Shown here one piece after another: positions 13,545 through 29,453 of a stretch of 32,309 bases of DNA. How positions within the stretch are numbered: position 1 is the first letter of the stretch; each line of letters opens with the position of its first letter. The DNA comes from Chitinophaga pinensis (GTDB lineage: Bacteria; Bacteroidota; Bacteroidia; UKL13-3). Under the pieces are notes generated by a model. It did no database searches, had not been told where the DNA came from, and saw nothing but the letters and a program-made list of their open reading frames with translations. The translations under genes and the position numbers were made by a program. Where the stretch lies: the NCBI GenBank assembly GCA_945861965.1, contig CAMAWM010000024.1:1-32309 (forward strand), read 5' to 3'.

Positions 13545-14669
13545 CTATTTAACTTTTTCTAATTCCATTCCGCAAATCTTGCATTTCCCAGGTTCGTAGC
13601 CTCCTCCGCCTTCGCATTTCATCGTGCACGCATAATAGCTTTTTGCATCCGATGGAATTTCACAAGTTGGGGCTTTTACAAAAAATCTATATGCAACACC
13701 AAATATAAATTGATGTTGAGAAGCAAGCTGATTTCCATATACATTTTCATACAATGGCAATTCATACAAACCATAAAATGTTAAAGATTTGTAATTGAAA
13801 TTAATTTGTGGAACAAATGTAATTTTTTCGCTTCCTGTAGAAGTTGAATTAACATTGTAAAGAGCTAAAAGATCTACATTTTCTGCAGCTTCCAATTTGC
13901 CAATCTGTTCGCCTTTAATTTGAAGTGTAATGCCAAGATTGTTGAAAAAAGTTTTTCCGGCAAACAACCCAACAGATGCATAATCGCCAAATTTTTCGCC
14001 TAATGAATTCCAACCTCTTCTTATATAAATTGTATTTGCAAATACTCTGAAATTCTTTTGAGTAAATCCTTTGAAAAAAAATGCATATAATATGATGTCA
14101 TTTGAACCGTTTGTTGGTTGAACCAATGGGGGCGAAACAGTAAAAATTTGCTGTCCGGAAATAGGATTTGTATATACAAGAGTAGAGTCGTTGTGTTTAC
14201 CAAGTGGAATTTTATATCCTAAACCAAGTGTAATTTCAAAGCGTTTTTTTTCGGTTACGCGATTTACTATATCAAACTTTGGAAAAATAATTAAGTCTGC
14301 AATTCCTGATGATTCTATTTTTTCGGATTTGCTTAAAACCGCATCGTAAAATCCTGTTTGAATTTTATTGAAAAAGTATCCTGATTCAATTGATATTGTG
14401 AAATCTTTAGTTACTCCATAAGCAATTTTAGAGTAATTGTAATTGCTGTTATAGTTATCGAATAATTTCGGAGTAAATTTGTCGCCTGTTTTGAATTTAT
14501 TGCTACTGATATATTGAAAATTACTTGAAATTTCAACTTGGCCAGCTTGTAAAACGCCTTGTGTAGCTCCTCCAGCGATAGGACTTCCACCTCCACCGGC
14601 ACAACATCCTTGCGAATAAATTTTAATTGAAAATAAAATTATGGAAAAGAAGAGAATAAATACTCTCAT
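13545..14669 (-). CDS. Outer-membrane barrel protein with a C-terminal heavy-metal-binding domain
   Basis: The 374-residue protein has a signal peptide (about 1-19), then a short Cys/Gly-rich start of the mature protein (QGCCAGGGGSPIAGG). About 300 residues of beta strands typical of an outer-membrane barrel follow. The end is a heavy-metal-binding domain at about 344-371: Cys348-x-Met350, Cys352, Cys363-x-x-Cys366-x-Met368. That Cys/Met pattern is the one used by small copper/silver- or zinc-binding domains near CusAB-type pumps. Its place behind the thioredoxin-like gene (31-base gap) and the split efflux pump suggests a role in metal sensing, capture or release at the outer membrane. The barrel family is not identified; it may be related to transporter-type proteins seen beside metal efflux genes in Bacteroidota. 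Confidence 0.75.
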   Translation of the reverse strand: MRVFILFFSIILFSIKIYSQGCCAGGGGSPIAGGATQGVLQAGQVEISSNFQYISSNKFKTGDKFTPKLFDNYNSNYNYSKIAYGVTKDFTISIESGYFFNKIQTGFYDAVLSKSEKIESSGIADLIIFPKFDIVNRVTEKKRFEITLGLGYKIPLGKHNDSTLVYTNPISGQQIFTVSPPLVQPTNGSNDIILYAFFFKGFTQKNFRVFANTIYIRRGWNSLGEKFGDYASVGLFAGKTFFNNLGITLQIKGEQIGKLEAAENVDLLALYNVNSTSTGSEKITFVPQINFNYKSLTFYGLYELPLYENVYGNQLASQHQFIFGVAYRFFVKAPTCEIPSDAKSYYACTMKCEGGGGYEPGKCKICGMELEKVK

Positions 14670-14700: not shown

Positions 14701-15465
14701 TTATCGTGTAATAGTAACCTTAACTATTTCAAACGATTCGCCTGTATTAAGTTTGATAAAATAAGAACCAACACTTAGGGATTCTAAATTTATTTCGTAC
14801 GATTGAATTCCAGCTGATTGTTTTCCGATTGAAATAGATTTTACTTTTTCGCCTAAAATATTTGTTATTTCAATACTTACATTAGTTGATGTATTTAATG
14901 AATAATTTAAAATTGCATTGCTTACAATTGGATTTGGAAATACAGTTGCTTTTAACTTAGTGTTTTTTTTTTCGTCAATTGCGGTACCTGCGCTTAAAGC
15001 AGAATTGATTGCAGCTTGCAAAGCACTTTGTGTGATGGTTCCATTTTGATTGAAATAAACGGAATGGCTACTTGCTCCAAGCACTACTGTTTTAGGCATT
15101 CCTGGTGTTCCATAACTACTCATGCTAATAGCAGAGTTTGAAAAATTAGCAGTAAAAACAATGTTATTCGAACTTGCCCAACTTCCAATTGTGCTACACG
15201 AATTGTCAGCATAATCGTCACACAAATAGAAAACAACTTTTGGGTTTGCAAATCCTATAACAGTATTTGCGGCAGTTAATGCTGCTGGAATGCAAGCTCC
15301 GCAGGGCATTACCCAACAAATTACAACAACTTTTCCTGCATCAAGTTCTGTGAAAAGTGTGTGAGGGTTTCCTGCGCAATCATTGGCAGTCCAATTGGTA
15401 GCAGATTGAGAAAAACTTAGAGCAATTGCTAAACATGCAATAGAAGATAGGATTAATTTTTTCAT
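14701..15465 (-). CDS. Thioredoxin-like protein with T9SS sorting domain
   Basis: This 254-residue protein has a signal peptide (about 1-20) and a compact thioredoxin-fold region with the active-site motif PCGAC (Cys55 and Cys58). A TPGMPKTVVLG segment near 118-128 supplies the cis-proline loop. A Por-secretion tail follows (FPNPI near 176 and VGSYFIKLNTG near 235). I infer a surface or secreted thiol oxidoreductase delivered by the type IX system. It follows the N-terminal half of CusA but has its own strong promoter, so it need not depend on the pump operon. The neighbourhood suggests a role in thiol protection or metal handling outside the outer membrane. Confidence 0.82.
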   Translation of the reverse strand: MKKLILSSIACLAIALSFSQSATNWTANDCAGNPHTLFTELDAGKVVVICWVMPCGACIPAALTAANTVIGFANPKVVFYLCDDYADNSCSTIGSWASSNNIVFTANFSNSAISMSSYGTPGMPKTVVLGASSHSVYFNQNGTITQSALQAAINSALSAGTAIDEKKNTKLKATVFPNPIVSNAILNYSLNTSTNVSIEITNILGEKVKSISIGKQSAGIQSYEINLESLSVGSYFIKLNTGESFEIVKVTITR

Positions 15466-15536: not shown

Positions 15537-16805
15537 TTATTCGTTCAATTGTGCTTCGCTTAAATGTCTGTATGAATTTTCAACCATAACAATTGTATCG
15601 TCAACTATAACACCAATTGCCAATGCAATTCCAGTTAGCGACATAATATTTGAAGACAATCCCATTAGATTTAATAAAATAAAACTAGATGCTACTGAAA
15701 TGGGAATTTGAATGAGGATAATAATTGCACTTCGCCAATGAAAAAGAAAAATTAAAACAACAATTGACACACTAATAAATACTTCAATTAAAGTTCCTTT
15801 TACCGAATTGATGGCTTCCTCAATCAAGCTACTTCTATCGTAATCAATTTTAAATTTCACACCTTCGGGCAAACCTTTCTGAATTTCTACAATTTTCGAT
15901 TTAACATTTTTTATTACGGCATCTGCATTTTCACCGTAACGCATTACAACAATTCCACCAACCGTTTCTCCCTCACCGTTTTTGTCAAAAATTCCATAGC
16001 GTAAATCACCGCCCATTTGCACATTTCCAACATCTTTTATTCTGACAGGAACATTGTTGTTTGTAGTTAGCGATATGTTTTCAATTTCAGCAATTGATTT
16101 AATGTAACCCAATCCGCGTACTATGTATGATTTGTCACTCATTTCGAATTTTCTTCCACCTACATCGTTGTTGTTAGATTTCACTACGCTCAAAATATTT
16201 ATCATAGACAGGTTGTAATAATTCAGTTTTATTGGATCAATCACAATTTGATATTGTTTTTGAAATCCACCAAAAGATGCAACTTCACTTACACCTGGAA
16301 CTGTTTGTAATGCTAACTTGATATACCAATCTTGCAATGCGCGTTGCTCGCCAAGATCATATCCTTTTGCATCTAACGAATACCAAAATATGTGGCCAAC
16401 ACCTGTTCCATCAGGACCCAATGTTGGTGAAATCCCTTCGGGCAATAGTTTTTGTGCAAAGTTTAATCTTTCAGTAACTCTTGTTCTTGCCCAATAAATA
16501 TCAGCATTGTCTTCAAATATTAGATACACGAAACTCATTCCAAACATTGATGATCCTCTTATGTTTTTTAGTTTTGCAATGCCTTGAAGATTTGAAACTA
16601 GAGGATAGGTTATTTGATCTTCTATAACTTGAGGACTTCTCCCCATCCATTCAGTAAAAACAATTACTTGGTTTTCTGAAAGATCAGGAATTGCATCAAC
16701 CGGATTGTGATTCATTTCGTAAATACCCCAAGCAAACATTCCTGCAGAAATTAGCAATACGATTAATCGATTGCGTAATGAAAATGATATAAGTTTTTTT
16801 ACCAT
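15537..16805 (-). CDS. cusA: CusA/CzcA-type RND efflux pump, N-terminal half (separate ORF)
   Basis: The 422 residues match the first 40 percent of a heavy-metal RND permease and then stop. TM1 is at about 11-30, followed by the signature region PVDAIPDLSENQVIVFTEW. The porter-domain segments present include TLGPDGTGVGHIFWY, VPGVSEVASFGG and NNNDVGGRKFEM. TM2-TM4 follow (about 338-410). Asp402 in IVDDTIVMVEN corresponds to the proton-relay Asp405 of E. coli CusA. Translation ends 12 residues past that motif, in the cytoplasmic TM4-TM5 loop. The missing remainder is encoded by the ORF at 20451-22349, which lies upstream in the same operon. The gene begins 9 bases after the second adaptor stop codon. 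After its stop there is only AT-rich sequence with the next promoter, and no decayed cusA remnant. It cannot work alone because the metal site and the other relay residues are in the other half. Confidence 0.92.
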   Translation of the reverse strand: MVKKLISFSLRNRLIVLLISAGMFAWGIYEMNHNPVDAIPDLSENQVIVFTEWMGRSPQVIEDQITYPLVSNLQGIAKLKNIRGSSMFGMSFVYLIFEDNADIYWARTRVTERLNFAQKLLPEGISPTLGPDGTGVGHIFWYSLDAKGYDLGEQRALQDWYIKLALQTVPGVSEVASFGGFQKQYQIVIDPIKLNYYNLSMINILSVVKSNNNDVGGRKFEMSDKSYIVRGLGYIKSIAEIENISLTTNNNVPVRIKDVGNVQMGGDLRYGIFDKNGEGETVGGIVVMRYGENADAVIKNVKSKIVEIQKGLPEGVKFKIDYDRSSLIEEAINSVKGTLIEVFISVSIVVLIFLFHWRSAIIILIQIPISVASSFILLNLMGLSSNIMSLTGIALAIGVIVDDTIVMVENSYRHLSEAQLNE

Positions 16806-16814
16806 GTGTTTGTT

Positions 16815-18020
16815 TTATTTTATTGTTTCAGACATGTTCTTGTGTTCAGCCATTGAATTAGTTCCTTTCTTAAATACATACTCGCTGTTGAGCAAATATG
16901 ATCCAGATACAACTACAGTCTCACCAACTTGTAAACCATCAACAATTTCAATTTGTGTGCTGTTTTGCATTCCCAGTTTTACCCTTCTGTTTTCAAATAC
17001 ATCATCCTTGTTTCGAATCCAAACATATGCACCTTTACTGTCTTGAATTATTGCGTTTATCGGAAGTGCTAAAGTTTTTTTCATTTCAGTTTTCAAAGTA
17101 ATGTTTGCTAACATTCCTGGTTTTATTTGTTGCGTTGGATTTTGTATTTGAAATCTTGTTAACACAAAACGATTGGGCGATTGTACTTGTGGTTCGATAA
17201 AAATTACTTTGCCTAAAAACAATGTATCACTCAATGAAGGAATATTGAAATGGGCTTCAGTTCCTATTTTTAAATAGGATAAATAGGGAAGATACACTTG
17301 CGCTTCAACCCAAAGCGAATTGAAAGATGCAAGACGAAAAAGTGTTTGTCCTGTTGTAACATAATTTCCTTCGGCAACTGAAAGTTCGCTAACAAAACCA
17401 TCTATTGATGAATAAATTGAAATATTTTGCAATGCGTTTTTCGAACTTTTTAATTGATTGATTTGAAATTCATTCATTCCATACAACAACAATTTATTTT
17501 TTGATGCAACAATCAATTCTTCTGAAACAGATTTCTGAATAGCAAGTATGTAATCCAATTGTGCTGCGTTTATGTCTTCGCTGTAAATTTCATAAAGCAA
17601 TTGACCTTTTCTTATATAATCACCACTATTTTTTACTGCCAATTTTTCAATTCTCCCTTGAATTTTAGTGCTGATGGCATTGCTTAGATTTTGGTCAAAT
17701 GTTACTTTTCCGGTAAGCATAATTTCTTTTGTCAAATTACTAATCCGAAGCGTATCAAATGTAATGTTGGCTAATTTTATCTGTTGAACGCTCAGTTTTA
17801 TTTGTCCCGCTTTGAGGGTATTTTTTTTAGCTTTAATTAATTTCATGTGACAAATTGGACAAATCCCGTCTTTGTTTTCTATTACTTGCGGATCCATAGA
17901 ACAGGTATAATATTCATCAGAGTTTGATAGCACAGAATGATTCTCATGATTGTTGCAAGAAGCCAACAATAGCATGCTTGATATAAATACCAAAAAAAAT
18001 ATTTTTCTATTCATTTTCAT
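16815..18020 (-). CDS. cusB: RND efflux periplasmic adaptor with N-terminal heavy-metal-binding domain (CusB-type)
   Basis: This 401-residue lipoprotein has the lipobox LLAS-C with Cys22. A heavy-metal-binding domain follows at about 37-62 (Cys40-x-Met42, Cys54-x-x-Cys57-x-Met59). The membrane-fusion-protein body comes next: a barrel-sandwich segment (KIQGRIEKLAVKNSGDYIRK), a helical hairpin and a beta-barrel (GTEAHFNIPSL), with the membrane-proximal region near VVSGSYLLNSEY. It should bridge the inner-membrane pump and the outer-membrane factor and bind Cu/Ag-like ions before transfer. It overlaps the upstream adaptor gene by 14 bases. Methionine 3 (18014) is an equally possible start. This is the second of two tandem adaptors; CusB-type complexes use six adaptor chains per pump trimer, so a mixed ring is possible. 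Confidence 0.92.
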   Translation of the reverse strand: MKMNRKIFFLVFISSMLLLASCNNHENHSVLSNSDEYYTCSMDPQVIENKDGICPICHMKLIKAKKNTLKAGQIKLSVQQIKLANITFDTLRISNLTKEIMLTGKVTFDQNLSNAISTKIQGRIEKLAVKNSGDYIRKGQLLYEIYSEDINAAQLDYILAIQKSVSEELIVASKNKLLLYGMNEFQINQLKSSKNALQNISIYSSIDGFVSELSVAEGNYVTTGQTLFRLASFNSLWVEAQVYLPYLSYLKIGTEAHFNIPSLSDTLFLGKVIFIEPQVQSPNRFVLTRFQIQNPTQQIKPGMLANITLKTEMKKTLALPINAIIQDSKGAYVWIRNKDDVFENRRVKLGMQNSTQIEIVDGLQVGETVVVSGSYLLNSEYVFKKGTNSMAEHKNMSETIK

Positions 18021-19257
18021 TTGATTTTATGAAACTCTCACTGTCTACCAAATATTGCGCATTGGCTGCAACTTTTTCATCTAGTTTTAATCCTGAAATT
18101 ATTTGAATTGTAGTATCCGTTTCAAAGCCAGTTTGAATAGTTTTGGCAATGAAATTGTTTTTGTTTTTTAAAAACACAATTTGTTTTTTTCCTAAGTTGA
18201 TAACTGCATTTCGAGGCAACCACATTCCGTTTATTTCACTTGTATAAATTTTTGCAGAAAGTAATGTTCCAATTTTAAGTTGAAGATGCTGTTCGTTTTG
18301 CAAATAAACTCTTGCTTTAATTGTAGAAGAATTTTGTCCTACAACTGGTTCGATGTAGTGAATGTTGGAAGTAATAACATTGTTTGGATTTATTTCTGAA
18401 CTAATCTGAACTTTATCGCCAACATCTATAAATGCTGCATCTTTTTGAAAAATAGTAAGCACTCCCCAAACCTTATTTGTGTTGTAAACTGAAAAAATGG
18501 CTTGCCCACTTGTTAAATACATGCCTTCTTTAATAGTAAGTGAAAAACTTTGCGATGTAGTTTGATTTTCAATTTCAATTGGATTTGATTCCGAATCAGA
18601 ATTTCCCATTTTCGAATTCATTCCATTGTTTAATGATGCTGAAGAAATAGCTTCACTACTTATTCCAATATCGTGAATATGGCCGCTGTATGGACTATAG
18701 ATTGGTAATGGATTTATTGCTTGTTTCGAAGTTTCAATTTGAATTAATTGTTCGTTTGTTATACCCAATAATTTTAATTTTTGTTTTGTTGATTGTATAA
18801 GTTCAATATCATTTGAAGAATTTTTCAGCAGATAAATAAAGGCATGTTGTGCAGCTAAAATTTCAGTGCTATTAATGTCCATAATTCGCTGACCTTTTGA
18901 AACATTTTCAAAATTGAATCGTACATACAGTTTTTCAATTCTTCCATTAAATCTTGCGCTGATATTATTGATTAATTGTGGATCGTATTCAATAATCCCA
19001 TTTGCTTGTAATATTGGATTTAACTTTTGTTGTGTTGCTGAAATAGTTTTTATTTCACTAAACACAGTTTGGTTTGTACTTTTCACCAATTCATTCAATT
19101 CGTTTGAACTGTTTGTTTGAAAATGTTTATGTTCATTTGCGTCATTGCACGAACAAATAGCGACAAGCAAAAGAAAATAAGTGAAATGCACTATCGCCTT
19201 TTCTAAATTGCAATTGAATGTAGCAGATTGATTATCTAATTTCCATTTCTCTTTCAT
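18007..19257 (-). CDS. RND efflux periplasmic adaptor subunit
   Basis: This 416-residue adaptor has the typical core: ISARFNGRIEKLYVRFNF (lipoyl-like half), a helical hairpin around residues 130-175, a second lipoyl half (PIYSPYSGHIHDIG), a beta-barrel (VGDKVQISSEIN) and a C-terminal membrane-proximal region (VAANAQYLVDSES). The lipobox-like AICSC near residues 33-37 suggests lipid anchoring. The first ATG gives an unusually long polar leader before it; an internal GTG just upstream of HFTYFLLLVAIC would give a more usual signal peptide. Unlike its neighbour it lacks the heavy-metal-binding domain. It overlaps the outer-membrane-factor gene upstream by 26 bases and the second adaptor downstream by 14, showing tight translational coupling. 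Confidence 0.9.
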   Translation of the reverse strand: MKEKWKLDNQSATFNCNLEKAIVHFTYFLLLVAICSCNDANEHKHFQTNSSNELNELVKSTNQTVFSEIKTISATQQKLNPILQANGIIEYDPQLINNISARFNGRIEKLYVRFNFENVSKGQRIMDINSTEILAAQHAFIYLLKNSSNDIELIQSTKQKLKLLGITNEQLIQIETSKQAINPLPIYSPYSGHIHDIGISSEAISSASLNNGMNSKMGNSDSESNPIEIENQTTSQSFSLTIKEGMYLTSGQAIFSVYNTNKVWGVLTIFQKDAAFIDVGDKVQISSEINPNNVITSNIHYIEPVVGQNSSTIKARVYLQNEQHLQLKIGTLLSAKIYTSEINGMWLPRNAVINLGKKQIVFLKNKNNFIAKTIQTGFETDTTIQIISGLKLDEKVAANAQYLVDSESFIKSNENE

Positions 19258-20464
19258 AATCCACTTGTAATTTTAACAGTGTTCCTAATTGTTCTAATTT
19301 ATTCATAGTTGCCATTCGATACATTTTCAATCCATCTAAAACTACAAATAAATCTTCCTTGTTTTGGCCGTATGCAATCAATGAAGTTTGGTAACTTTTG
19401 TAATATGTTGGAATGATGTTTTCTGAAAAATTTGTTAACTGTTGTTTTGTTGATTTGATTTGTGTTTGCAACGAAGCAATCGTTCCGGCAGTTTCATTTA
19501 GCAGAGCTTGTTTTTGTAAATTAATTGCATTGCTTGTGTTGTCTAAGCCTTTGATATTCGACTTAAATTCCTTTGAAGCCCATGGTGCAATTGGAATTGT
19601 TAGCATTCCCATTGCTGAGTATAATTTAGGCATAGGTTCCTCTCGTAAAGATTGCATGTGCGAAACTGAAATTCCGAAATCTGGCAATTGTTTTGATTTT
19701 TCATACTGCTGTTTCAGTTTTACTATCCCAATGCTAGCATCAAATTGTTTGATATCGCTTCGTGATGATGAAATAAGTGCAGTATCTATTAATTGTAATT
19801 CGTAATATTTTAAACTCAAATTTGTATCCACATCAAACGATATTGATTTATCAAAATTCATTAATGTGTTTAGTGCTACATTTTTTATTTGCATCTCACC
19901 TAACATCATTGTTTCCAAATTGCGTAGTTCAAATAAATCTGCTTGCGCTTTGTAAATGTTGTTCAGTTTTTCTTTGTTGTAAGTGTAACGGATTTGTGAA
20001 ACCTGAATGATGTAATTCAGCAACGAATCAGTTTGTATCAATACATCTAATTTCCTTTTCAAAACAATCCACTCAAAATAAGTATGTTTTGCCATTGCAA
20101 ACATTTCATTTTTTTTGACCGACTTTTTTTGTTTCTCAAATGGAGCCATGCCTTGCATGTATTTATAGTTTGCTTTTTGTTTTGCAGGATTTGGAATCAT
20201 TTGTGCGCCTGTAATCATCCACATTCCTTCTCTAATATTTGTGTAAGGTGTTTGCCATGTTCCTGTTGATAGAGTAGGAGACATCCAACTTTTTGCAGTT
20301 TGCGAGTAATTGTTTACCGCATTGATTTGTTCGTCATACATTTTTAGCATAGGATTATTTTTCTCTATACTATTCAGAATAGAATCTAAGCTTAGTGCTT
20401 GTCCAAATGTTTGAATCGAACCAGTGCAAATAAGCAGTAGAAATATCAATTTAAATTTCTTCAT
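19232..20464 (-). CDS. TolC-family outer-membrane efflux protein (CusC-like)
   Basis: The 410-residue protein has a signal peptide (about 1-21, ending QTFG). It continues with the long amphipathic helices and two similar halves of the outer-membrane-factor fold: LDSILNSIEKNNPMLKMYDE at the start and long heptad-like helices near 120-180 and 310-370. It would form the trimeric channel of a tripartite metal efflux complex. The chain is Met-rich around residues 78-128 (REGMWMITGAQMIPNP, MQGMAP), possibly suited to soft metals. It overlaps the C-terminal CusA half by 14 bases and the first adaptor by 26. Confidence 0.9.
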   Translation of the reverse strand: MKKFKLIFLLLICTGSIQTFGQALSLDSILNSIEKNNPMLKMYDEQINAVNNYSQTAKSWMSPTLSTGTWQTPYTNIREGMWMITGAQMIPNPAKQKANYKYMQGMAPFEKQKKSVKKNEMFAMAKHTYFEWIVLKRKLDVLIQTDSLLNYIIQVSQIRYTYNKEKLNNIYKAQADLFELRNLETMMLGEMQIKNVALNTLMNFDKSISFDVDTNLSLKYYELQLIDTALISSSRSDIKQFDASIGIVKLKQQYEKSKQLPDFGISVSHMQSLREEPMPKLYSAMGMLTIPIAPWASKEFKSNIKGLDNTSNAINLQKQALLNETAGTIASLQTQIKSTKQQLTNFSENIIPTYYKSYQTSLIAYGQNKEDLFVVLDGLKMYRMATMNKLEQLGTLLKLQVDYEREMEIR

Positions 20465-22349
20465 TTTTTCCTGGTAATATTATTTTGCCATGTTTTTTTA
20501 ATTCTCTTTCTTTCGCCATTTCGTAAATAATTGGCGTAACTAACAATACATAAATTGTAGATGTAACAACTCCTCCAATTAATGGAAGTGTGATTGGCAA
20601 CATTACATCGCTACCAGTTCCAGTTGACCAAAGAATTGGTATCAATCCAAACAACGAAACAGAAACGGTCATCAATTTTGGTCTTAAGCGTTGCACTGCG
20701 CCATTCATTATATATTTTCTTAAATCAATAGTTGAAATTGTAGCAGATGAATTGCCTTTGTCTGCAATTAATTTTTCCATGTATTCATTCAGGTAAATAG
20801 TCATGAGCATAGCAGTTTCAATTGCTACTCCAAATAATGCAATGAAACCAACTGCAACTGCAACAGACAAATTCACTCCATAAAAATAAACCATAAATGC
20901 ACCGCCAATCAATGCAAACGGAACGGTAATCATTGTTATCAAAGCTTCTTTCAAAGATTTGTAAGTAAAATAAAGCACCATGAAAATTAGAATGAAAACA
21001 ATTGGCATTATCATCATTAAAGTATTGTTTGCTCTGATTTGATTTTCCCATTGTCCGCTCCATTCAAGTGAATAACCTTTAGGAAGTTTTGAAAACATTT
21101 TGTTCAATTTATCTTGCGATTCTTTAACAGTACTTCCTAGATCTCGGTTGCGAACATTGAACAAAACTGTACCGCGCAACATGGCATTTTCAGAATTTAT
21201 CATTGGAGGCCCTTCTGAAATGGAAACGGAAGCAACAGCTGAAAGTGGAACAGTTCCATAATCATTTGTTTTGATAGGAATTTGTTTAATCGCTTCCAAA
21301 CTATTTCGATAATCTTGTGCAAATCGTGCATTCACAGTATAGCGTTCTCTGCCTTCAATTGTAGTTGTAATATTCATTCCGCCCAAAGCAGTTTCAACAT
21401 ACATATTGACATCATCTACACTCAATCCGTATTTTCCAATTTCGTCTTTCTTAGTTTTAATATCTACATATTTTCCACCAGTGATGGGTTCAACATATAA
21501 ATCTTTAATGCCATTTATTCCTTGAAGTTCGTTTTTGATTAAAGTTGCAAGTGCATGGATGGAATCAATATTTTGCCCGTAAACTTTTAATCCTACATCC
21601 GTTCGTATACCAGTTGATAGCATATTTATACGATTGATAATAGGCTGTGTAAATCCATTAACTACACCGGGTATTTGCAACTTTGCATTTAACTCATTTA
21701 TAATATCATCTTTAGTTAATCCATTTCTCCATTCTGATTTTGGTTTCAATAGTATAATTGTTTCAATCATACTTATTGGAGAATTGTCAGTGGCTGTATT
21801 TGCTCTGCCTGCTTTGCCTAAAACATTTTCAACTTCAGGAACCGACTTGATAATTTTATCCTGCACTTGTAAAATTCTTTTCGCCTCTGAGTTTGAAACA
21901 TCAGGCAATGTTACTGGCATAAAAAGTATTGAACCTTCATCCAACGGTGGCATAAACTCAGTGCCCATTCTAAACATCATTGTACAACCAATAAGTAAAG
22001 CAATTAGGTTTATTGTCAATACAGTTTTACGCCATTGCATACACCACAAAAGCAATGGCGAATAAATTTTTTCTAAAGTGCGAGTAACAGGATTTGAATG
22101 TTCGGATTTTAGTTTTCCTTTTAGAAAAATTGATATCAATATTGGCGTTAATGTAATAGCAAGAAATGCATCTATAATAAGTATAAAAGTTTTTGTCCAA
22201 GCCAGCGGATGAAAAAGTTTTCCTTCAATTCCGGTTAGCAAAAAAACGGGTAGAAAAGAAGCAATTACTACAATTGTTGAGTAAAATACTCCTGGTCCAA
22301 CTTGCTTTGAGGATTTAGAAATGATATGTAATCTTTCCTTTTTATCCAT
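20451..22349 (-). CDS. cusA: CusA/CzcA-type RND efflux pump, C-terminal half (separate ORF)
   Basis: The 632 residues correspond to CusA from just before TM5 to the C-terminus. It begins MDKKERLHIISKSSKQVGPG, then TM5-TM6 with FLPVFLLTGIEGKLF, TM7, the second porter domain and TM8-TM12. The three methionines of the E. coli CusA Cu(I)/Ag(I) site are present with the same spacing: Met144 (FMPVTLP), Met194 (SMIET) and Met243 (INML), matching Met573/623/672. Glu511 (GVAIETAML) and Lys558 (RLRPKLM) match proton-relay residues Glu939 and Lys984. The first half of the pump is a separate ORF five genes downstream (15537-16805). This ORF starts one base after the stop of the small metal-binding gene (TAAAATG), so it has a proper coupled start rather than looking like a broken 5' end. 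A start further upstream is not available without overlapping that gene. Confidence 0.93.
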   Translation of the reverse strand: MDKKERLHIISKSSKQVGPGVFYSTIVVIASFLPVFLLTGIEGKLFHPLAWTKTFILIIDAFLAITLTPILISIFLKGKLKSEHSNPVTRTLEKIYSPLLLWCMQWRKTVLTINLIALLIGCTMMFRMGTEFMPPLDEGSILFMPVTLPDVSNSEAKRILQVQDKIIKSVPEVENVLGKAGRANTATDNSPISMIETIILLKPKSEWRNGLTKDDIINELNAKLQIPGVVNGFTQPIINRINMLSTGIRTDVGLKVYGQNIDSIHALATLIKNELQGINGIKDLYVEPITGGKYVDIKTKKDEIGKYGLSVDDVNMYVETALGGMNITTTIEGRERYTVNARFAQDYRNSLEAIKQIPIKTNDYGTVPLSAVASVSISEGPPMINSENAMLRGTVLFNVRNRDLGSTVKESQDKLNKMFSKLPKGYSLEWSGQWENQIRANNTLMMIMPIVFILIFMVLYFTYKSLKEALITMITVPFALIGGAFMVYFYGVNLSVAVAVGFIALFGVAIETAMLMTIYLNEYMEKLIADKGNSSATISTIDLRKYIMNGAVQRLRPKLMTVSVSLFGLIPILWSTGTGSDVMLPITLPLIGGVVTSTIYVLLVTPIIYEMAKERELKKHGKIILPGKNEEI

Positions 22350-22350
22350 T

Positions 22351-22608
22351 TTATTTTTCTTCTACAAGTTGTAAATCCATATTGCAAACTGGGCATTGAA
22401 TAAGCTCTGTGTAAGTTTTTCCTTTTTCACAATCCATTGGGCATTGATAATGCACATTGCTTTTATTTTGCTCAACCTGATTCGTGCTATCTCCAAGTAG
22501 TTTATTTTCTAGTGGTTTATTATTCCCGCATTTTCCGCAATTGATATATACTGTTGTTCCTATTGCTATTACTGCAATCAAAACGATAATTAAATTTCGT
22601 GATTTCAT
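22351..22608 (-). CDS. Membrane-anchored heavy-metal-binding domain protein
   Basis: This 85-residue protein has one N-terminal membrane helix (about 5-22) and then a periplasmic CGKC (Cys24, Cys27). A C-terminal heavy-metal-binding domain follows: Cys56-x-Met58, Cys60, Cys72-x-x-Cys75-x-Met77 (YQCPMDCEKG and CPVCNMDL). The likely role is to capture Cu/Ag-type ions and hand them to the efflux pump, a CusF-like job done by a different fold. It ends one base before the CusA C-half ATG. A terminator-like hairpin separates it from the HYC_CC_PP gene upstream. I see no TAnnTTTG box in its own leader, so it probably depends on read-through or an unrecognised promoter. Confidence 0.85.
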   Translation of the reverse strand: MKSRNLIIVLIAVIAIGTTVYINCGKCGNNKPLENKLLGDSTNQVEQNKSNVHYQCPMDCEKGKTYTELIQCPVCNMDLQLVEEK

Positions 22609-22697: not shown

Positions 22698-23069
22698 TTA
22701 AACTAAAATGGAGCGAAAATCAATAACCCGATCTAAAAATTTCGGGGGAGGGGAGTGGTTGTTTTTAAGTACCGAATAGTTTTTGAAACTAATTTTAGGT
22801 GTAAATTCAAAATAAATTATAGCAGAAGAAAAAGTTGTTTTTGCAAGATGAAATTCGAATGCAGGTGAATAATCTGAATTAACTTTTACATAGTTAGTTT
22901 CATTCTTGCAACAGTTTTCTGGCATTGATTTTTCATCATCGCAGCAACTTTTCTTTTTTATCACCCCAACGGATTCAAGTTTGCCTCCACAATAATGCGA
23001 ATGAATATTAATTCCAATTGCGCTAGCAAGAAATAAAATAGATAGAAATATGGAAACTACTTTTTTCAC
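22698..23069 (-). CDS. HYC_CC_PP family small exported protein
   Basis: The 123-residue protein starts at a GTG (no ATG fits) and has a signal peptide (about 1-19). The defining marks of this Bacteroidota family are visible: HYC (HSHYCGGK), CC (KKSCCDDE, again NCCKNE) and a late PP (HSPPPKF). Such genes typically sit next to heavy-metal efflux operons; the cysteine/histidine-rich mature part suggests metal binding in the periplasm, but the function is not established. A strong promoter precedes it and a terminator-like hairpin follows, so it may be made in excess over the pump genes. Confidence 0.88.
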   Translation of the reverse strand: MKKVVSIFLSILFLASAIGINIHSHYCGGKLESVGVIKKKSCCDDEKSMPENCCKNETNYVKVNSDYSPAFEFHLAKTTFSSAIIYFEFTPKISFKNYSVLKNNHSPPPKFLDRVIDFRSILV

Positions 23070-23150: not shown

Positions 23151-24068
23151 TTACTGCTTGTCGTGGCTTTCGCCTTTTGCAACTTTAAAAATATGAAGAA
23201 TATACGGAAACAATGAATCCATAGTTTCTTCAGCACCTTTTGTAGAACCCGGAAGTGTTAAAGTTAGTGTATTGCCAATCATTCCTGCAACTCCTCTAGA
23301 CAGCATAGAATATGGAGTTCTATCTTGTCCAAAACATCTTGCGGCTTCCATAATTCCTGGAATTTCTCTATCCAAAAGTGGTTTGATAGCTTCTGGAGTA
23401 ACATCGCGTTTTGACAATCCAGTTCCACCAGCGAAAATTAACAAATCATAATTTTCAGCCGAAAAATATTTTGCCTTTTGTTGAATTATTTCCAATTCGT
23501 CAGGAATAATTTCATAATCGGAGTTTTTTATTCCGCATTTTTTTAATTTTTCAATAATGGCTTTTCCTGCTTTGTCGTGTTTTTTACCAGCTGATATGCT
23601 GTCAGAACAAACAATAACAATTGCTTTTAATTCGCAATTTAAAATATCTATGAAATCTGATTTTCCTCCCTTTTTTTCAATTAATTGTATTGCTGAAATT
23701 TCAATTTTTTTATCAATTGGTTTCAACATATCATACATCGTTAGCGCTGTAATTGCTGCTCCATGCATAGCTTCAACTTCAACACCTGTTTTGTAAATCG
23801 TTTGAACCGCTACTGTAATCAGTATTTTCAACTCGTCTATTTCCGAATGAATAGTTGCAAATTCGACAGGCATTGGGTGGCAATCAGGTATTACATTGCT
23901 GGTATTTTTAATCGCCAATAAACCTGCAGCTCTTGAAAACTCAAGTACATTTCCCTTTGGAACTTTATTGTTTTTAATTGCATCAATCGTTTCTTGTGTG
24001 CTTACTTTTACAATTGCTTGAGCAATTGCAGTTCGTTTAGTATTTATTTTTCTTGTTATGTCAATCAT
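23151..24068 (-). CDS. moaCB: Bifunctional molybdenum cofactor protein MoaC-MoaB
   Basis: This 305-residue protein fuses two Moco enzymes. Residues 1-145 are MoaC, which completes cyclic pyranopterin monophosphate formation after MoaA; the marks are IPDCHPMPV, TGVEVEAMHGA, ALTMYDM and KKGGKSD. Residues 147-300 are MoaB/MogA-like, which adenylylates molybdopterin; the marks are AIVIVCSDS, the GGTGLSKRDVTPEA loop, EIPGIMEAAR and TLPGSTKGAEE. The fusion is known in Bacteroidota and some other bacteria. It is the last gene of the Moco operon and overlaps moaE by 4 bases (ATGA), so translation is coupled. Confidence 0.95.
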   Translation of the reverse strand: MIDITRKINTKRTAIAQAIVKVSTQETIDAIKNNKVPKGNVLEFSRAAGLLAIKNTSNVIPDCHPMPVEFATIHSEIDELKILITVAVQTIYKTGVEVEAMHGAAITALTMYDMLKPIDKKIEISAIQLIEKKGGKSDFIDILNCELKAIVIVCSDSISAGKKHDKAGKAIIEKLKKCGIKNSDYEIIPDELEIIQQKAKYFSAENYDLLIFAGGTGLSKRDVTPEAIKPLLDREIPGIMEAARCFGQDRTPYSMLSRGVAGMIGNTLTLTLPGSTKGAEETMDSLFPYILHIFKVAKGESHDKQ

Positions 24069-24526
24069 AATTCAATTGATTTATTAGCATTTGTTTTCCA
24101 TTGAAAACTTTCGTCTTCAAAAATTTCCTTTCCCCAAATAGGTACTTCTTTTTTTATTCTTTCAACTAATTCATTGCAGCCTTCAATTGCAGCTTTTCGA
24201 TGTTTGGATGAAGTGAAAACAAACAGACTTATTTCTCCGACATTTACCGTACCAATGCTATGATAAATATGCATGCAGGTTAATTCATACTTGTTAAAAG
24301 TAGCCTCTCTTATTTCGTGCATTTTTTCTTCGGCCATTTCAGTATATGCTGAATAGTTTATAGCAATTACCTCTCGTTCATTTATCCTATCATTTCTAAC
24401 CTGCCCAAGAAAAATACTGTGTGCTCCAATGCTTTTTTTTGTGCTGTGTTTTGCAATTGAATCTCCAACAAATTCTGGAGAAATTGCACCTTCAACAAAT
24501 ATTTTTTTTATTTTTTTTGATTCCAT
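24065..24526 (-). CDS. moaE: Molybdopterin synthase catalytic subunit MoaE
   Basis: The 153-residue MoaE forms the heterotetrameric molybdopterin synthase with MoaD and puts the dithiolene sulfurs onto cyclic pyranopterin monophosphate. Family signatures are HSIFLGQVRND near 36-46, HSIGTVNVGE near 89-98 and the HRKAAIEGC helix. The catalytic lysines are Lys126 and Lys133 (ERIKKEVPIWGKE), spaced as Lys119/Lys126 in E. coli. It starts 2 bases after the moeB stop and overlaps moaCB by 4. Confidence 0.95.
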   Translation of the reverse strand: MESKKIKKIFVEGAISPEFVGDSIAKHSTKKSIGAHSIFLGQVRNDRINEREVIAINYSAYTEMAEEKMHEIREATFNKYELTCMHIYHSIGTVNVGEISLFVFTSSKHRKAAIEGCNELVERIKKEVPIWGKEIFEDESFQWKTNANKSIEL

Positions 24527-24528
24527 AC

Positions 24529-25659
24529 TTAAATGTGGATTTTATTTTGGTGTTTTTTCCATTCTATAATTCCACCGTGTAAGCTGCTTACAGATGCATT
24601 AGGGATTATTTTATTAATGATTTTTACAGCATTTAAACTTCTTATTCCAGTTTGACAAAATACAACAATTGTATCAGCAATTTTAAGTGCCGAAATCTTT
24701 TCTTCAAGTTCATTCATTGGAATTTTAATGTTTGGAAACTCGCTTACAATTGGCAATTCACTCAATTCGCGAACGTCAATTACTGTAATCTTGTTTCCTG
24801 CTATTAAAAGATCAAAATTTTCAGCTGATATTTCATTGCTTACATGGCTTACGCCACAAATCCAATCATAATTAAATGCTAAAAATTCTTTCTCGTTTTT
24901 CGGCATTTTACTTTTTGACTTTTCGTCTGAAAAAATCTCGAACTCATGCATTTCATTATTTAAGACATTGTACGAAATTATTTTGTTGCAAATGGGTTTC
25001 CCAATGCCTGTTATAATTTTTATAGCTTCTGTTGCTTGCATGGTCCCAATTAACGCTGGAACTACACCCAAAACTCCTGCTTCGTTGCAAGATAAAATTG
25101 TGTTTTCAACTGGAGGTTCTGGAAACAAATCGCGGTAATTTGTTTTGATATTAGAATTGTTTTCTTCAAAATTAAAAACACCAACTTGACCTTCGAAGCG
25201 CAATACTGCCCCATAAATAAAAGGTTTGTTTAACAAAACACAAGCATCGTTAATTAAGTAGCGTGTCGAAAAATTATCAGAACCATCAATAACTAAATCG
25301 TACGCTGAGATTATTTCAAGAGCATTTTTATTTTGTAGTTTTAGGTTGAGTATATTGATTTGAATATCCGGATTTAGTTGTTTAATTCTTTCTGCTGCTG
25401 TTTTCACTTTTGATTTTCCGATGTCGTCAGTTGTGTAAAGAATTTGCCGTTGAAGATTTGAAATATCAACTACATCAAAATCAACAATTCCGATTGTGCC
25501 AATACCAGCTGCAGCAAGATATTGTAAGGCTGGACATCCCAAACCACCCGCTCCAATAATAAGAACCTTTGCATCAAATAATTTAATTTGTGCTGCAACT
25601 CCAAACTCTTTTAGTTGAATTTGTCTTTGGTATCTTAAATGGTTTTCAGTCGAGAGCAT
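24529..25659 (-). CDS. moeB: Molybdopterin-synthase adenylyltransferase MoeB with rhodanese domain
   Basis: The 376-residue protein activates the MoaD C-terminus by adenylylation. Residues 1-240 form the ThiF/MoeB domain: nucleotide loop GAGGLG (36-41), DGSDNF (125-130), YRDLFPEPP and the conserved Cys191 in SCNEAGVLG. Residues about 288-372 are a rhodanese domain with active-site Cys335 (CQTGIRS), which can supply sulfur for MoaD thiocarboxylate. The Zn-binding cysteine pairs of E. coli MoeB are missing (YRDLF where CYRCLF is expected), apparently usual in Bacteroidota homologues. The domain fusion resembles eukaryotic MOCS3/Uba4. It lies 11 bases after moaD. Confidence 0.93.
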   Translation of the reverse strand: MLSTENHLRYQRQIQLKEFGVAAQIKLFDAKVLIIGAGGLGCPALQYLAAAGIGTIGIVDFDVVDISNLQRQILYTTDDIGKSKVKTAAERIKQLNPDIQINILNLKLQNKNALEIISAYDLVIDGSDNFSTRYLINDACVLLNKPFIYGAVLRFEGQVGVFNFEENNSNIKTNYRDLFPEPPVENTILSCNEAGVLGVVPALIGTMQATEAIKIITGIGKPICNKIISYNVLNNEMHEFEIFSDEKSKSKMPKNEKEFLAFNYDWICGVSHVSNEISAENFDLLIAGNKITVIDVRELSELPIVSEFPNIKIPMNELEEKISALKIADTIVVFCQTGIRSLNAVKIINKIIPNASVSSLHGGIIEWKKHQNKIHI

Positions 25660-25670
25660 TTTTTCGTTTT

Positions 25671-25904
25671 TTATCCTCCAGAAAATGGGGGCAAAAGAGC
25701 AACAATATCACCCATATTAATTTCCGTATTTTTATTAATATTTTTTTTGTTTATAGCAATTCCATAACTTATTTCGTTCAATTGTGGAAACGCATTTGAC
25801 AGTTTTTTTCTCAACTCTTCTGTATCTTTTATTTCGTTTATCGACATTATCGAATTCCCAATAATGTCCGCAATTTGTCCGAATGCTATTATTTTTATTT
25901 CCAT
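25671..25904 (-). CDS. moaD: Molybdopterin synthase sulfur-carrier subunit MoaD
   Basis: This 77-residue beta-grasp protein ends in the required Gly-Gly (LLPPFSGG), which is adenylylated by MoeB and converted to a thiocarboxylate. The start IKIIAFGQIADIIG and the GDIVALLPP loop are typical. Its ATG overlaps the mobA stop by one base (TAATG). Confidence 0.95.
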   Translation of the reverse strand: MEIKIIAFGQIADIIGNSIMSINEIKDTEELRKKLSNAFPQLNEISYGIAINKKNINKNTEINMGDIVALLPPFSGG

Positions 25905-26494
25905 TACATAAGTTGACTTAAAGCGCGTTCAAAATCTTTCTTTGTATTTAAATTCAAAAATAATTTATCGCCAAATAAATCATTTTGATCGAAATCAATT
26001 TTCTGCAAATTGAAATGAGTTACAAGCGTTTGCAATTTGATAATATTTTGAAGGATAAGTTTTTCCCATTTTGCTAAACAATCTTTTGAATAAAGTCCAA
26101 ACAAAGGTTCTATTTTATTTTTATGAATTGCTAAATTTATTTGTGATGAGTTTGCTTTTTGAAGCAGGAAATTAATAGCGGAAGTAGTTACAAATGGCAT
26201 ATCGCAACTCATTATAAAGTTCTGATTTGTATGGGTATGTTTTAATGCAGTATAAATTCCACCAGCCGGTCCAATATCTTTTATCAAATCAGGAATTAAT
26301 TCGAATCCAAATTTTTCATATTCTATATTATTTGAAATTATAAATATATTTTTTACCGATTTCTCAAGTTGTTCAAAGGCATGTTGAATTACTGCTTTTT
26401 TATTTAGTAGCATTAATCCTTTATCGCTTCCCATTCTTGAGCTTTTTCCGCCAGCTAAAATATATCCAGATATGTTATTTTCAATTTGCTGCAT
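25904..26494 (-). CDS. mobA: Molybdenum cofactor guanylyltransferase MobA
   Basis: The 196-residue nucleotidyltransferase has the signature GYILAGGKSSRMGSDKG near 11-26, DIGPAGGIYTAL near 72-83 and SCDMPFV near 95-101. MobA attaches GMP to Mo-molybdopterin to make bis-MGD for DMSO-reductase-family enzymes; a cytidylyltransferase role (MocA) is less likely given the MobA-type motifs but cannot be fully excluded. It starts 3 bases after the TauE-like gene. Confidence 0.9.
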   Translation of the reverse strand: MQQIENNISGYILAGGKSSRMGSDKGLMLLNKKAVIQHAFEQLEKSVKNIFIISNNIEYEKFGFELIPDLIKDIGPAGGIYTALKHTHTNQNFIMSCDMPFVTTSAINFLLQKANSSQINLAIHKNKIEPLFGLYSKDCLAKWEKLILQNIIKLQTLVTHFNLQKIDFDQNDLFGDKLFLNLNTKKDFERALSQLM

Positions 26495-26497
26495 GAA

Positions 26498-27229
26498 TTA
26501 GGTTAACATTAATTTAATACTTGCAATAAGTAAAACTACAGCTAATATTTTCTTTAAAAATGTTGTGTCAAATTTCTTAGATCCTAAATAAGAACCTAAA
26601 ATGCCGCCACAAATTGCAATTGCAATCATCCATCCCATTTCAATTTTAAATTCAAATCCATTGTTAAACAAACCTGCGAATCCAGCTAAAGAATTTACAA
26701 AAATAAACAATGCAGAAACGGTAGCAGTACGTTTCATATCTGCCCAATGCAACAAAAGAATAATTGGGCTTAAAATTATACCTCCGCCAATTCCAATCAA
26801 TCCTGAAAAGAAGCCAATGATTCCACCAATAATTAATGCAAGCTTGAAATTAATTTCTTTGGAAATAGTTTCAGTTTGAAATTTAAACCCAAAAAGTTTT
26901 ATGATTGGAAATAATAAAAAAACGGCTAATATTTTTTTATACAAATCAGCATCAATTGATATTAAGCCACCAAGATAGGCTGCAGGAATTGAGGCCAAAG
27001 CAAATGGATAAAATAATTTCCATTGAAAATATCCGCTTCGATAATATTGTGTAAATGCGATAAGCGAAACAAAAATATTTAACATCAATGCAGTTGGTCG
27101 CATGGTTTCAGGAGCAGCCGCAAAAAATATCATTAAAGCTAAATAACCACTTGCGCCACCATGTCCAACGCTAGAGTAAAGCAATGCTATGACGAATAAT
27201 AAAAGATAAAAAATCACTTCGCTGTACAT
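26498..27229 (-). CDS. TauE/SafE family sulfite/organosulfur exporter
   Basis: The 243-residue integral membrane protein has about eight hydrophobic helices in two related halves. The family's glycine-rich signatures are SSVGHGGASGYLALM near 19-33 and GLIGIGGGIILSPIILL near 143-159. Members move sulfite, sulfoacetate or related anions, mostly outward. It is embedded between moeA and mobA with gaps of 13 and 3 bases, so it is clearly part of the Moco operon. I infer a link to sulfur-anion chemistry of a molybdenum enzyme such as a sulfite dehydrogenase located elsewhere, or movement of another oxyanion; the sequence alone does not decide. Confidence 0.88.
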   Translation of the reverse strand: MYSEVIFYLLLFVIALLYSSVGHGGASGYLALMIFFAAAPETMRPTALMLNIFVSLIAFTQYYRSGYFQWKLFYPFALASIPAAYLGGLISIDADLYKKILAVFLLFPIIKLFGFKFQTETISKEINFKLALIIGGIIGFFSGLIGIGGGIILSPIILLLHWADMKRTATVSALFIFVNSLAGFAGLFNNGFEFKIEMGWMIAIAICGGILGSYLGSKKFDTTFLKKILAVVLLIASIKLMLT

Positions 27230-27242
27230 CTGTTTTTATTGA

Positions 27243-28418
27243 TTATATAATCATTCTTACCTTAACAAAATCGCCTTTATTGAAATCAATTTTTTCTTCT
27301 TCTAACTCAATTATGCAATTAGCAAAAGCAAACGAATTCATTAAATAACTTTCCTGTTTTTCTAAAATTTCAACTTCTTTTAAATCCGTTTTCCCTTTTA
27401 ATATAAAAGTAAGGGACGATTTTTTTATGTAGGAATTTGCCAATGGTAAATTTAACGCTTCAAAATATTTTTTCTTTGTAAAAGTGCTAATGGCATCAAC
27501 AATGTATCTGTAAAAACAAGTTAAAACTGCTGCAGGATTTCCTGGCAAAGCAAATACTAAAGTAGTATCCATTTTCCCAAAATAAAATGGCTTTCCTGGT
27601 TTTTGTTTCACTTTATGAAACACCTTTTTTACGCCACATTTTTCGAGTGCCGATACTACAAAATCATAATCTCCAACCGATACGCCACCAGTTATTATTA
27701 AAATATCAGTATGTATTTCTTTTGAAATTGCATGTATAATATCCACTTCAATATCGTCAACAATATTGACTGAAATAGGCGATATGTTTAGTTGATTAAG
27801 TGCTGCAATTAATCCAAACGAATTTGATTCGTAAATTTTTCCTTCAGTAATTTCATTGCCTGGCTGCACCAATTCTTTTCCAGTTACAATAATGCTGATT
27901 GTAGGATTAGAAAAAACTTTAATTTTATCAATTCCTGTTCCTGCTATAAATGAAATAGAAGCAGGTGAAAGTAAATGCCCAACATCTAAAATACATTCGC
28001 CTTTTTTAGATTGTGATCCTTTCAATCGAACATTTTTTCCTTGTATAAGTTGTTCGTCTTTTATGCTAATTGAATTGTTTGAAACAATTACATTTTCTTG
28101 TATTACAACTGTGTCAGCGCTTAATGGTAATGCCGCTCCGGTGTAAATACGAACTGCTTCATTTTGCACTAATTTATTTGATGAAAAACTTCCTGCTTGT
28201 ATTTCTGAAGTTATAGTTAAAATGCTTTTTTTATCCCAATCAGAAAATGAAAACGCATATCCATCCATTGCTGATTGATCGAAAGGAGGTGTATCTATTT
28301 TTGAAAAAATAGCTTCGGCTAAAACGTACCCGTAAGCATCTTTTACATTCAACAACTTAACTTTTGTTGTCGTGCAATTTTCATATATTAATTTTTCTGC
28401 TTCTGATACTTTTTTCAT
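27243..28418 (-). CDS. moeA: Molybdopterin molybdotransferase MoeA
   Basis: I start this at ATG 28416-28418 (391 residues, MKKVSEAEK); a frame extends 4 codons further to 28430. MoeA inserts molybdate into adenylylated molybdopterin. Signatures are DTPPFDQSAMDGYAF near 43-57, GGVSVGDYDFV in the MoCF domain, QKPGKPFYFGK and ALPGNPAAVLTCF. The C-terminal domain IV is present. It follows moaA by 51 bases and precedes the TauE-like gene by 13. Confidence 0.95.
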   Translation of the reverse strand: MKKVSEAEKLIYENCTTTKVKLLNVKDAYGYVLAEAIFSKIDTPPFDQSAMDGYAFSFSDWDKKSILTITSEIQAGSFSSNKLVQNEAVRIYTGAALPLSADTVVIQENVIVSNNSISIKDEQLIQGKNVRLKGSQSKKGECILDVGHLLSPASISFIAGTGIDKIKVFSNPTISIIVTGKELVQPGNEITEGKIYESNSFGLIAALNQLNISPISVNIVDDIEVDIIHAISKEIHTDILIITGGVSVGDYDFVVSALEKCGVKKVFHKVKQKPGKPFYFGKMDTTLVFALPGNPAAVLTCFYRYIVDAISTFTKKKYFEALNLPLANSYIKKSSLTFILKGKTDLKEVEILEKQESYLMNSFAFANCIIELEEEKIDFNKGDFVKVRMII

Positions 28419-28469
28419 CTTCAAAACCAATTACAAAATATTTAAAAGAAAGATTGATGATTAAGAAAA

Positions 28470-29453
28470 TCAGCCACCAATGTTAATCATGCTTCTATTG
28501 TTAATTTTTGTTGCATCTGTTTTTTTATAAGCCGATGTAAACTGACCTCCCAATGCTTTTTCTTTATCTGCAACGCATTGTTTTATTAATGGAAGTATAT
28601 CGTTTCCATTTCTCAATGCACTTAAAATATCTACTTCGTTATTAGAGAATAAACAGTTTTTCATTTTACCGTCTGTGGTTAATCGCATACGATTACAACC
28701 GCTACAGAAGGGTTCGCTCATGCTACTTATTACAGCAAAAGTGCCTTTGTGTCCTGATACAAAATATTTCTTTGCCGTATCATTTTTTTCGTTGATTAAT
28801 TTTATGTAATTATATTTTGTTGCTATTAAATCTAATATTTCTTTGAATGAAAAAACTTTGGTATTGTCCCATTTATTTCCTTCAAATGGCATGAATTCAA
28901 TAAATCGGACATGTATATTTTCATCTTTTGTCCAGGCAATAAAATCAAGTATCTCATCATCATTCATGTTCTTCATTACTACTACATTTATTTTTACATG
29001 AAAATTATTTTGTAGCAATAGATTAATATTATCCTTTACTCTGTCAAATTCATTTCGTTGAGTAATTGAAAAATTTTTATCTTTTTTAAGTGTGTCTAAA
29101 CTGACATTTATTGAGTGAATCCCAGCTTGTTTAAATGTTTCGATAAAATCATGAACAAATACACCATTTGTAGTAATAACTAATTCAACTGGATATTTTG
29201 ACAATCGAAGTAGAATGTCTTTGGCATCTTTTCTAACCAATGGTTCGCCACCAGTAATCCGAATTTTTTTAACGCCTTCGTTTACAAAAACGGAAGCGAT
29301 TTTATCAATTTCATCTGCTGACATTCGAACAGCACCTGCAAAAAAATCTTTTGGCAAATCAATAGGATTGCAATATGTGCAACGCAAATTGCATTTGTCG
29401 GTGAGAGAAATTCTCAGGTAGTCATGATTGCGGTCAAAGGAGTCTTTAAGCAT
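28470..29453 (-). CDS. moaA: GTP 3',8-cyclase MoaA (radical SAM)
   Basis: This 327-residue enzyme performs the first step of Moco synthesis from GTP. The N-terminal radical-SAM cluster is Cys21-x3-Cys25-x2-Cys28 (CNLRCTYC). ITGGEPLVR follows near 64-72. The C-terminal [4Fe-4S] cluster ligands are Cys250, Cys253 and Cys267 (FCSGCNRMRL and NCLFS). The C-terminus is the conserved Gly-Gly. It heads the Moco operon; upstream, TAACTTTT with TTTG 21 bp before it is a 7/8 match to a Bacteroidota promoter but is not convincing enough to call. Confidence 0.96.
   Translation of the reverse strand: MLKDSFDRNHDYLRISLTDKCNLRCTYCNPIDLPKDFFAGAVRMSADEIDKIASVFVNEGVKKIRITGGEPLVRKDAKDILLRLSKYPVELVITTNGVFVHDFIETFKQAGIHSINVSLDTLKKDKNFSITQRNEFDRVKDNINLLLQNNFHVKINVVVMKNMNDDEILDFIAWTKDENIHVRFIEFMPFEGNKWDNTKVFSFKEILDLIATKYNYIKLINEKNDTAKKYFVSGHKGTFAVISSMSEPFCSGCNRMRLTTDGKMKNCLFSNNEVDILSALRNGNDILPLIKQCVADKEKALGGQFTSAYKKTDATKINNRSMINIGG

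Follow-up and report, generated by a model that had tools for sequence, protein, structure and literature searches.

A CusA-like RND efflux pump divided between two genes in Bacteroidota

Genes of the operon and position of the chain break

The window (the whole stretch of DNA analysed, 32,309 nucleotides from an assembly assigned to Chitinophaga pinensis) holds an operon of six genes on its reverse strand, in the order HMBD, C-half, TolC, MFP1, MFP2 and N-half. The leading gene encodes a small HMBD-like protein (22351–22608; 85 aa) with a CPM...CPVCNM motif, scoring 20.1 bits against PF19335 (below the gathering score of 23.6), and its stop lies 1 bp from the start of the C-half gene (20451–22349; 632 aa), which encodes TM5–TM12, the second periplasmic loop and the three-Met site of a split CusA-type RND permease. 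A TolC-like outer-membrane factor (19232–20464; PF02321) and two CusB/HlyD-type periplasmic adaptors, MFP1 (18007–19257; PF16576, PF13437) and MFP2 (16815–18020; PF16576, PF13437, PF19335), intervene before the N-half gene (15537–16805; 422 aa), which encodes TM1–TM4 and the first periplasmic loop; the two halves and the genes between them span 15537–22349. MFP2 carries a heavy-metal-binding domain at its N-terminus, and 9 bp separate its stop from the N-half start. Successive overlaps of 14, 26 and 14 bp along C-half, TolC, MFP1 and MFP2 make a single six-gene transcript likely. A Bacteroidota-type promoter pattern gave two matches against 5.2 expected by chance, none of them ahead of the operon.

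Upstream of the operon lies a gene for a HYC_CC_PP family protein (22698–23069, reverse strand; NF047658 above cut-off), probably part of the same metal-handling region. Directly upstream of that region is a molybdenum-cofactor biosynthesis cluster (23151–29453) encoding a MoaC/MoCF fusion, MoaE, ThiF/rhodanese, MobA-like, MoeA and MoaA-like proteins. At 13545–14669, a 374-aa protein ends in 30 residues resembling the HMBD motif (19.5 bits, below cut-off) and adjoins a T9SS-tailed protein at 14701–15465. The genome of the window encodes two other RND proteins (G000:C2:62295-65405 and G000:C4:64732-67845), both unsplit: a CzcA-like protein of 1454 aa (33–39% identity to the halves) and a more distant RND permease of 1131 aa.

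By phmmer, residues 1–419 of the N-half align with PDB-chain residues 8–429 of Escherichia coli CusA, and residues 1–611 of the C-half with PDB-chain residues 437–1044; matches to CusA (PDB 3t51) at E = 2.3e-125 for the N-half and 2.2e-164 for the C-half leave chance resemblance no issue. By Foldseek, the N-half is 45% identical to CusA chain 4dop. Residue pairs were taken by hand from the phmmer alignments, with the CusA number as the PDB index minus 7 and a native CusA length of 1047. The N-half thus aligns up to CusA 422 (its residue 419) and the C-half from CusA 430 (its residue 1), which places the break in the short loop after TM4, a loop that is cytoplasmic in RND topology; the TM4–TM5 position proposed in the initial annotation is confirmed by this alignment. 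The proton-relay equivalents are D402 (CusA D405) in the N-half and E511 (E939) and K558 (K984) in the C-half, which also holds the three-Met site as M144, M194 and M243 (M573, M623 and M672), and all six correspondences agree with those named earlier from the sequence.

Profile searches give the same partition. The N-half covers PF00873 (ACR_tran) model positions 2–418 and TIGR00914 positions 1–426, and the C-half covers 416–1019 and 432–1043, the full PF00873 domain (positions 2–1019) being reached only by the two chains combined. Against TIGR00914, the C-half scores 617.7 bits and the N-half 468.6 bits, both below the curated cut-off of 701.45. A CusA-type permease is expected as a single chain of ~1050 aa, and the window encodes it as two genes.

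Distribution and ancestry of the split pump

The split is a widespread state in Bacteroidota. Among 147 related genomes, the C-half was found at 19 places in 17 genomes (E ≤ 1e-150), 16 of which are split, with frames of 631–728 aa; the three fused proteins are in G068 (1056 aa), G073 (958 aa, running off the contig end) and G069 (1071 aa, 42% identity). A search of the same genomes with the N-half gave 18 places in 16 genomes at ≥58% identity, 16 of them short frames and two fused, and every genome with a C-half at ≥54% identity also has an N-half (16/16, the window's genome included). Matches occurred in six of 64 family genomes. Across 395 genomes of the phylum, 63 places fell into 29 short frames (636–728 aa, all ≥55% identity) and 34 fused frames (1031–1100 aa, all ≤53% identity), with disjoint identity ranges; G282 and G387 have three C-halves each. 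N-half position was scored for those places of this set whose loci were retrieved, which are only part of the total and do not include the extra copies in these two genomes and G395.

A wider search, preceded by a single-sequence scan that found nothing, was evaluated on the best 80 of 575 confirmed stretches, a set that leans to close relatives because it was chosen by score. The N-half is present in 77 of these, split and adjacent to the C-half in 76 and fused in one (L119), and the other three have too little upstream sequence (0, 32 and 92 bp). Carriers in this set include Flavobacterium, Pedobacter, Mucilaginibacter, Chitinophaga, Runella, Hymenobacter and Sphingobacterium. The usual layout has the N-half gene immediately ahead of the C-half gene, and on four plasmids (Runella, Haliscomenobacter, Adhaeribacter and Mucilaginibacter) each half has its own annotated gene, both named ‘efflux RND transporter permease subunit’. 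The break is not peculiar to this genome; the local oddity turns out to be the displaced N-half gene.

We built a quick maximum-likelihood tree from 122 concatenated rows, after dropping L186, whose N-half was too short, and any locus that lacked either half. One clade of 118 of the 122 (SH-aLRT 99) gathers every split row together with three re-fused rows, with the fused proteins outside, and the window pump, as two open reading frames broken in the TM4–TM5 loop, lies inside this clade. Rooted on L071, the fewest changes in state are four: one split and three nested refusions (L056, L063 and L119). Second trees with a fused Pelobacter CusA added and five duplicates dropped (118 rows; N-only, C-only and concatenated) returned the same event counts. 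The refusion joins are clean in-frame linkers (KWTGHK, ERGSAEIKLSE and PWAKTFS), although assembly error could in principle have produced joins in contigs of metagenome-assembled genomes. The split is an old, single-origin and selectively maintained state in Bacteroidota.

The displaced order is rarer than the adjacent one and represents one change in the tree, in one clade of four genomes that is also recovered in the N-only and C-only trees (99). In this sub-lineage, the N-half gene closes the operon, following those for TolC and the two adaptors. Single contigs carry C-TolC-MFP1-MFP2-HMBD-N in G328 (L110) and C-TolC-MFP1-MFP2-N in G344 (L111); in G019, one contig runs from the C-half to MFP2 and a partial HMBD gene, and HMBD-N begins another contig, the contig ends overlapping in sequence without being identical. 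These ends (L053 1–675 and L054 1–165) have most of the HMBD gene in common, then a small indel and divergence; either strains vary here, or the assembly was interrupted by two gene copies. The usual gene order runs N-C-TolC-MFP1-MFP2, and in L055, L067, L074 and L075 an HMBD gene precedes N; the displaced orders are circular permutations of this (HMBD)-N-C-TolC-MFP1-MFP2 arrangement. Tandem duplication followed by differential loss is the probable origin of the displacement; no remnant second N- or C-half piece was found in L110 or L111 (tblastn E ≤ 1e-4, matches ≥30% identity). Unlike G328 and G019, the window has an HMBD-like gene ahead of the C-half and none ahead of the N-half. This HMBD-like protein (22351–22608) occupies the usual place of the N-half and by eye does not resemble its HMBD counterparts in G328 and G019, and for both reasons it may be a separate acquisition.

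Two products under shared constraint

Adjacent half-genes lie so close together that programmed frameshifting or stop readthrough might be imagined to yield a full-length CusA. Across 102 non-redundant adjacent N/C pairs, the N stop and C start are ≤20 bp apart in 89, and 24 pairs overlap by 4 bp as ATGA. All three relative frames nevertheless occur (C-half frame 2, 1 or 0 relative to the N-half in 59, 34 and 9 pairs), and seven pairs are separated by >100 bp, some with whole genes inside. Gaps of 260–1073 bp (L159, L167, L192, L112, L061 and L179) contain HMBD genes in L061, L159 and L192, with other open reading frames also in L159 and L192, and a methyltransferase-like open reading frame, judged by eye, in L167. 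In the four displaced genomes the N-half gene does not even precede the C-half gene, and with the N-half behind the other operon genes a single round of translation cannot yield both halves. Displaced order, intervening genes and mixed frames together show that neither frameshifting nor readthrough can account for the split in general, and we consider such a full-length product very improbable.

That the split is a recent break in the window's genome, or an error of contig assembly, has still less to recommend it and is scarcely credible: the window is one entire contig of a 61-contig draft assembly, but the displaced order stands on single contigs in G328 and G344, G019 is consistent with it, and the four genomes form one clade. 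The independent assemblies of G328 and G344 reject an assembly artefact. Recent disruption is further opposed by strong purifying selection on both halves. With NG86, dN/dS between the window and G019 is 0.068 for the N-half and 0.077 for the C-half, below the values of TolC (0.180), MFP1 (0.249) and MFP2 (0.214), and between the window and G328 it is 0.024 for N and 0.051 for C with dS saturated; the ratios are rough because dS is near saturation. No internal stops occur within the N or C hits behind the 122 tree rows. Stop-free halves and low dN/dS reject pseudogene decay and bear out the selection on function claimed in the initial annotation, which had itself set this test. Distances of the two halves correlate (mirror r 0.86), a value that includes shared ancestry and was not counted as evidence.

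Separate genes would permit separate roles, and with the three-Met site in the C-half, this half alone might pump metal while the N-half acts as a regulatory or accessory protein. We regard this as improbable: the essential TM4 Asp and half of the porter and docking domains are found only in the N-half, D405 is retained in 118/118 clade rows, and the halves co-occur in 16 of 16 genomes, evolve at similar rates and have been rejoined three times. Refusions, strict co-occurrence and equal constraint support the halves functioning together. A further reading, also unlikely, is that the pump exports divalent cations in the manner of CzcA; in its favour, annotation names are generic and TIGR00914 spans CusA and CzcA alike. 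Against this, equivalents of M573, M623 and M672 are invariant (118/118), CusA is the closest solved structure with ZneA ranking behind it, the operon encodes HMBD proteins, and on plasmids the neighbouring genes include those for a multicopper oxidase or copper ATPase. Homology and neighbouring genes thus point to Cu(I)/Ag(I) as the putative substrate.

The equivalents of M410 and M391 are likewise invariant in the 118 rows. E939 is replaced by Gln in five (L059, L060, L061, L159 and L192, a sub-clade of split pumps) and K984 by Ile or Val in another five (L069, L070, L125, L130 and L149), and in such members the proton relay may work differently. The initial annotation held that all key residues survive, which is right for the window but does not extend to every split relative, and the case for a universally intact relay is weakened.

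The proposed pump and known systems

We consider it very probable that the locus is a Cu(I)/Ag(I)-type tripartite efflux operon whose pump consists of two chains that obligately co-assemble into one CusA-like protomer, in three pairs. Each half would insert by itself, with its new terminus in the cytoplasm, and the halves would associate through the transmembrane core and the paired porter and docking subdomains. Three N/C pairs would then form a trimer docking to the adaptors and TolC. The proton relay would span the chain boundary, with D405 on the N chain and E939/K984 on the C chain, and would drive export of the metal held at the three-Met site of the C chain. The earlier expectation that the halves co-assemble is supported, and we infer co-assembly and trimer stoichiometry themselves from the evidence above.

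AlphaFold models of the separate halves, built on 37–38 alignment rows, reached mean pLDDT values of 68.7 and 67.2, and their top Foldseek match was CusA, yet at 12–16 Å rmsd on superposition. Given this low pLDDT and high rmsd, the models do not demonstrate a docked fold and were used only to count long TM-like helices (four in the N-half, eight in the C-half).

We speculate, with little confidence, that a whole lineage of tripartite metal pumps uses two-chain protomers and that, because the N- and C-chains are separate, cells with several split pumps, such as G282 and G387, could swap halves and form mixed pumps with other metal or adaptor preferences. On this reading, the circular permutation of the operon would mean that the halves need no translational coupling to assemble. 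An old, natural and reversible split inside one 6-TM repeat marks a break-tolerant point of the RND fold, and the TM4–TM5 site is usable for split-protein assembly studies. The half-genes are not new, being already in public annotation; in titles and the openings of abstracts, a scope outside which most subscription papers and preprints fall, no paper describing a split CusA was found. One large RND phylogeny, by its own account, dropped hits of <852 aa (six sequences) and also required >80% alignment size in its search (PMC10872679), filters that would exclude the halves. Length filters and the TIGR00914 cut-off miss such halves, and counts of Cu/Ag pumps in metal-resistance surveys of Bacteroidota may therefore be too low.

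The window pump resembles E. coli CusA in domain order, three-Met site, TM4 Asp and Glu/Lys relay residues, and its operon, as in CusCBA, encodes a TolC-like factor and CusB-like adaptors; it differs in having two chains, two different adaptors and a displaced N-half gene. The position of M403, part of the CusA methionine relay, is Ile, Val or Leu in the split-pump clade. Other split pairs in Bacteroidota are orthologous, share the break site and belong to the same clade, but their N and C genes are adjacent, whereas three genes lie between them in the window's sub-lineage. SecD/SecF is also an RND-superfamily protein made as two chains or one; it serves protein translocation and is divided at TM6/TM7, between the 6-TM repeats, in contrast to the TM4–TM5 break seen here; the remark in the initial annotation that natural splits usually fall at TM6/TM7 rests on this pair. 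MdtB and MdtC are each full-length permeases and not a split protomer. They nonetheless form, as the window pump would, an RND pump from two different gene products, a heterotrimer (PMC8277102).
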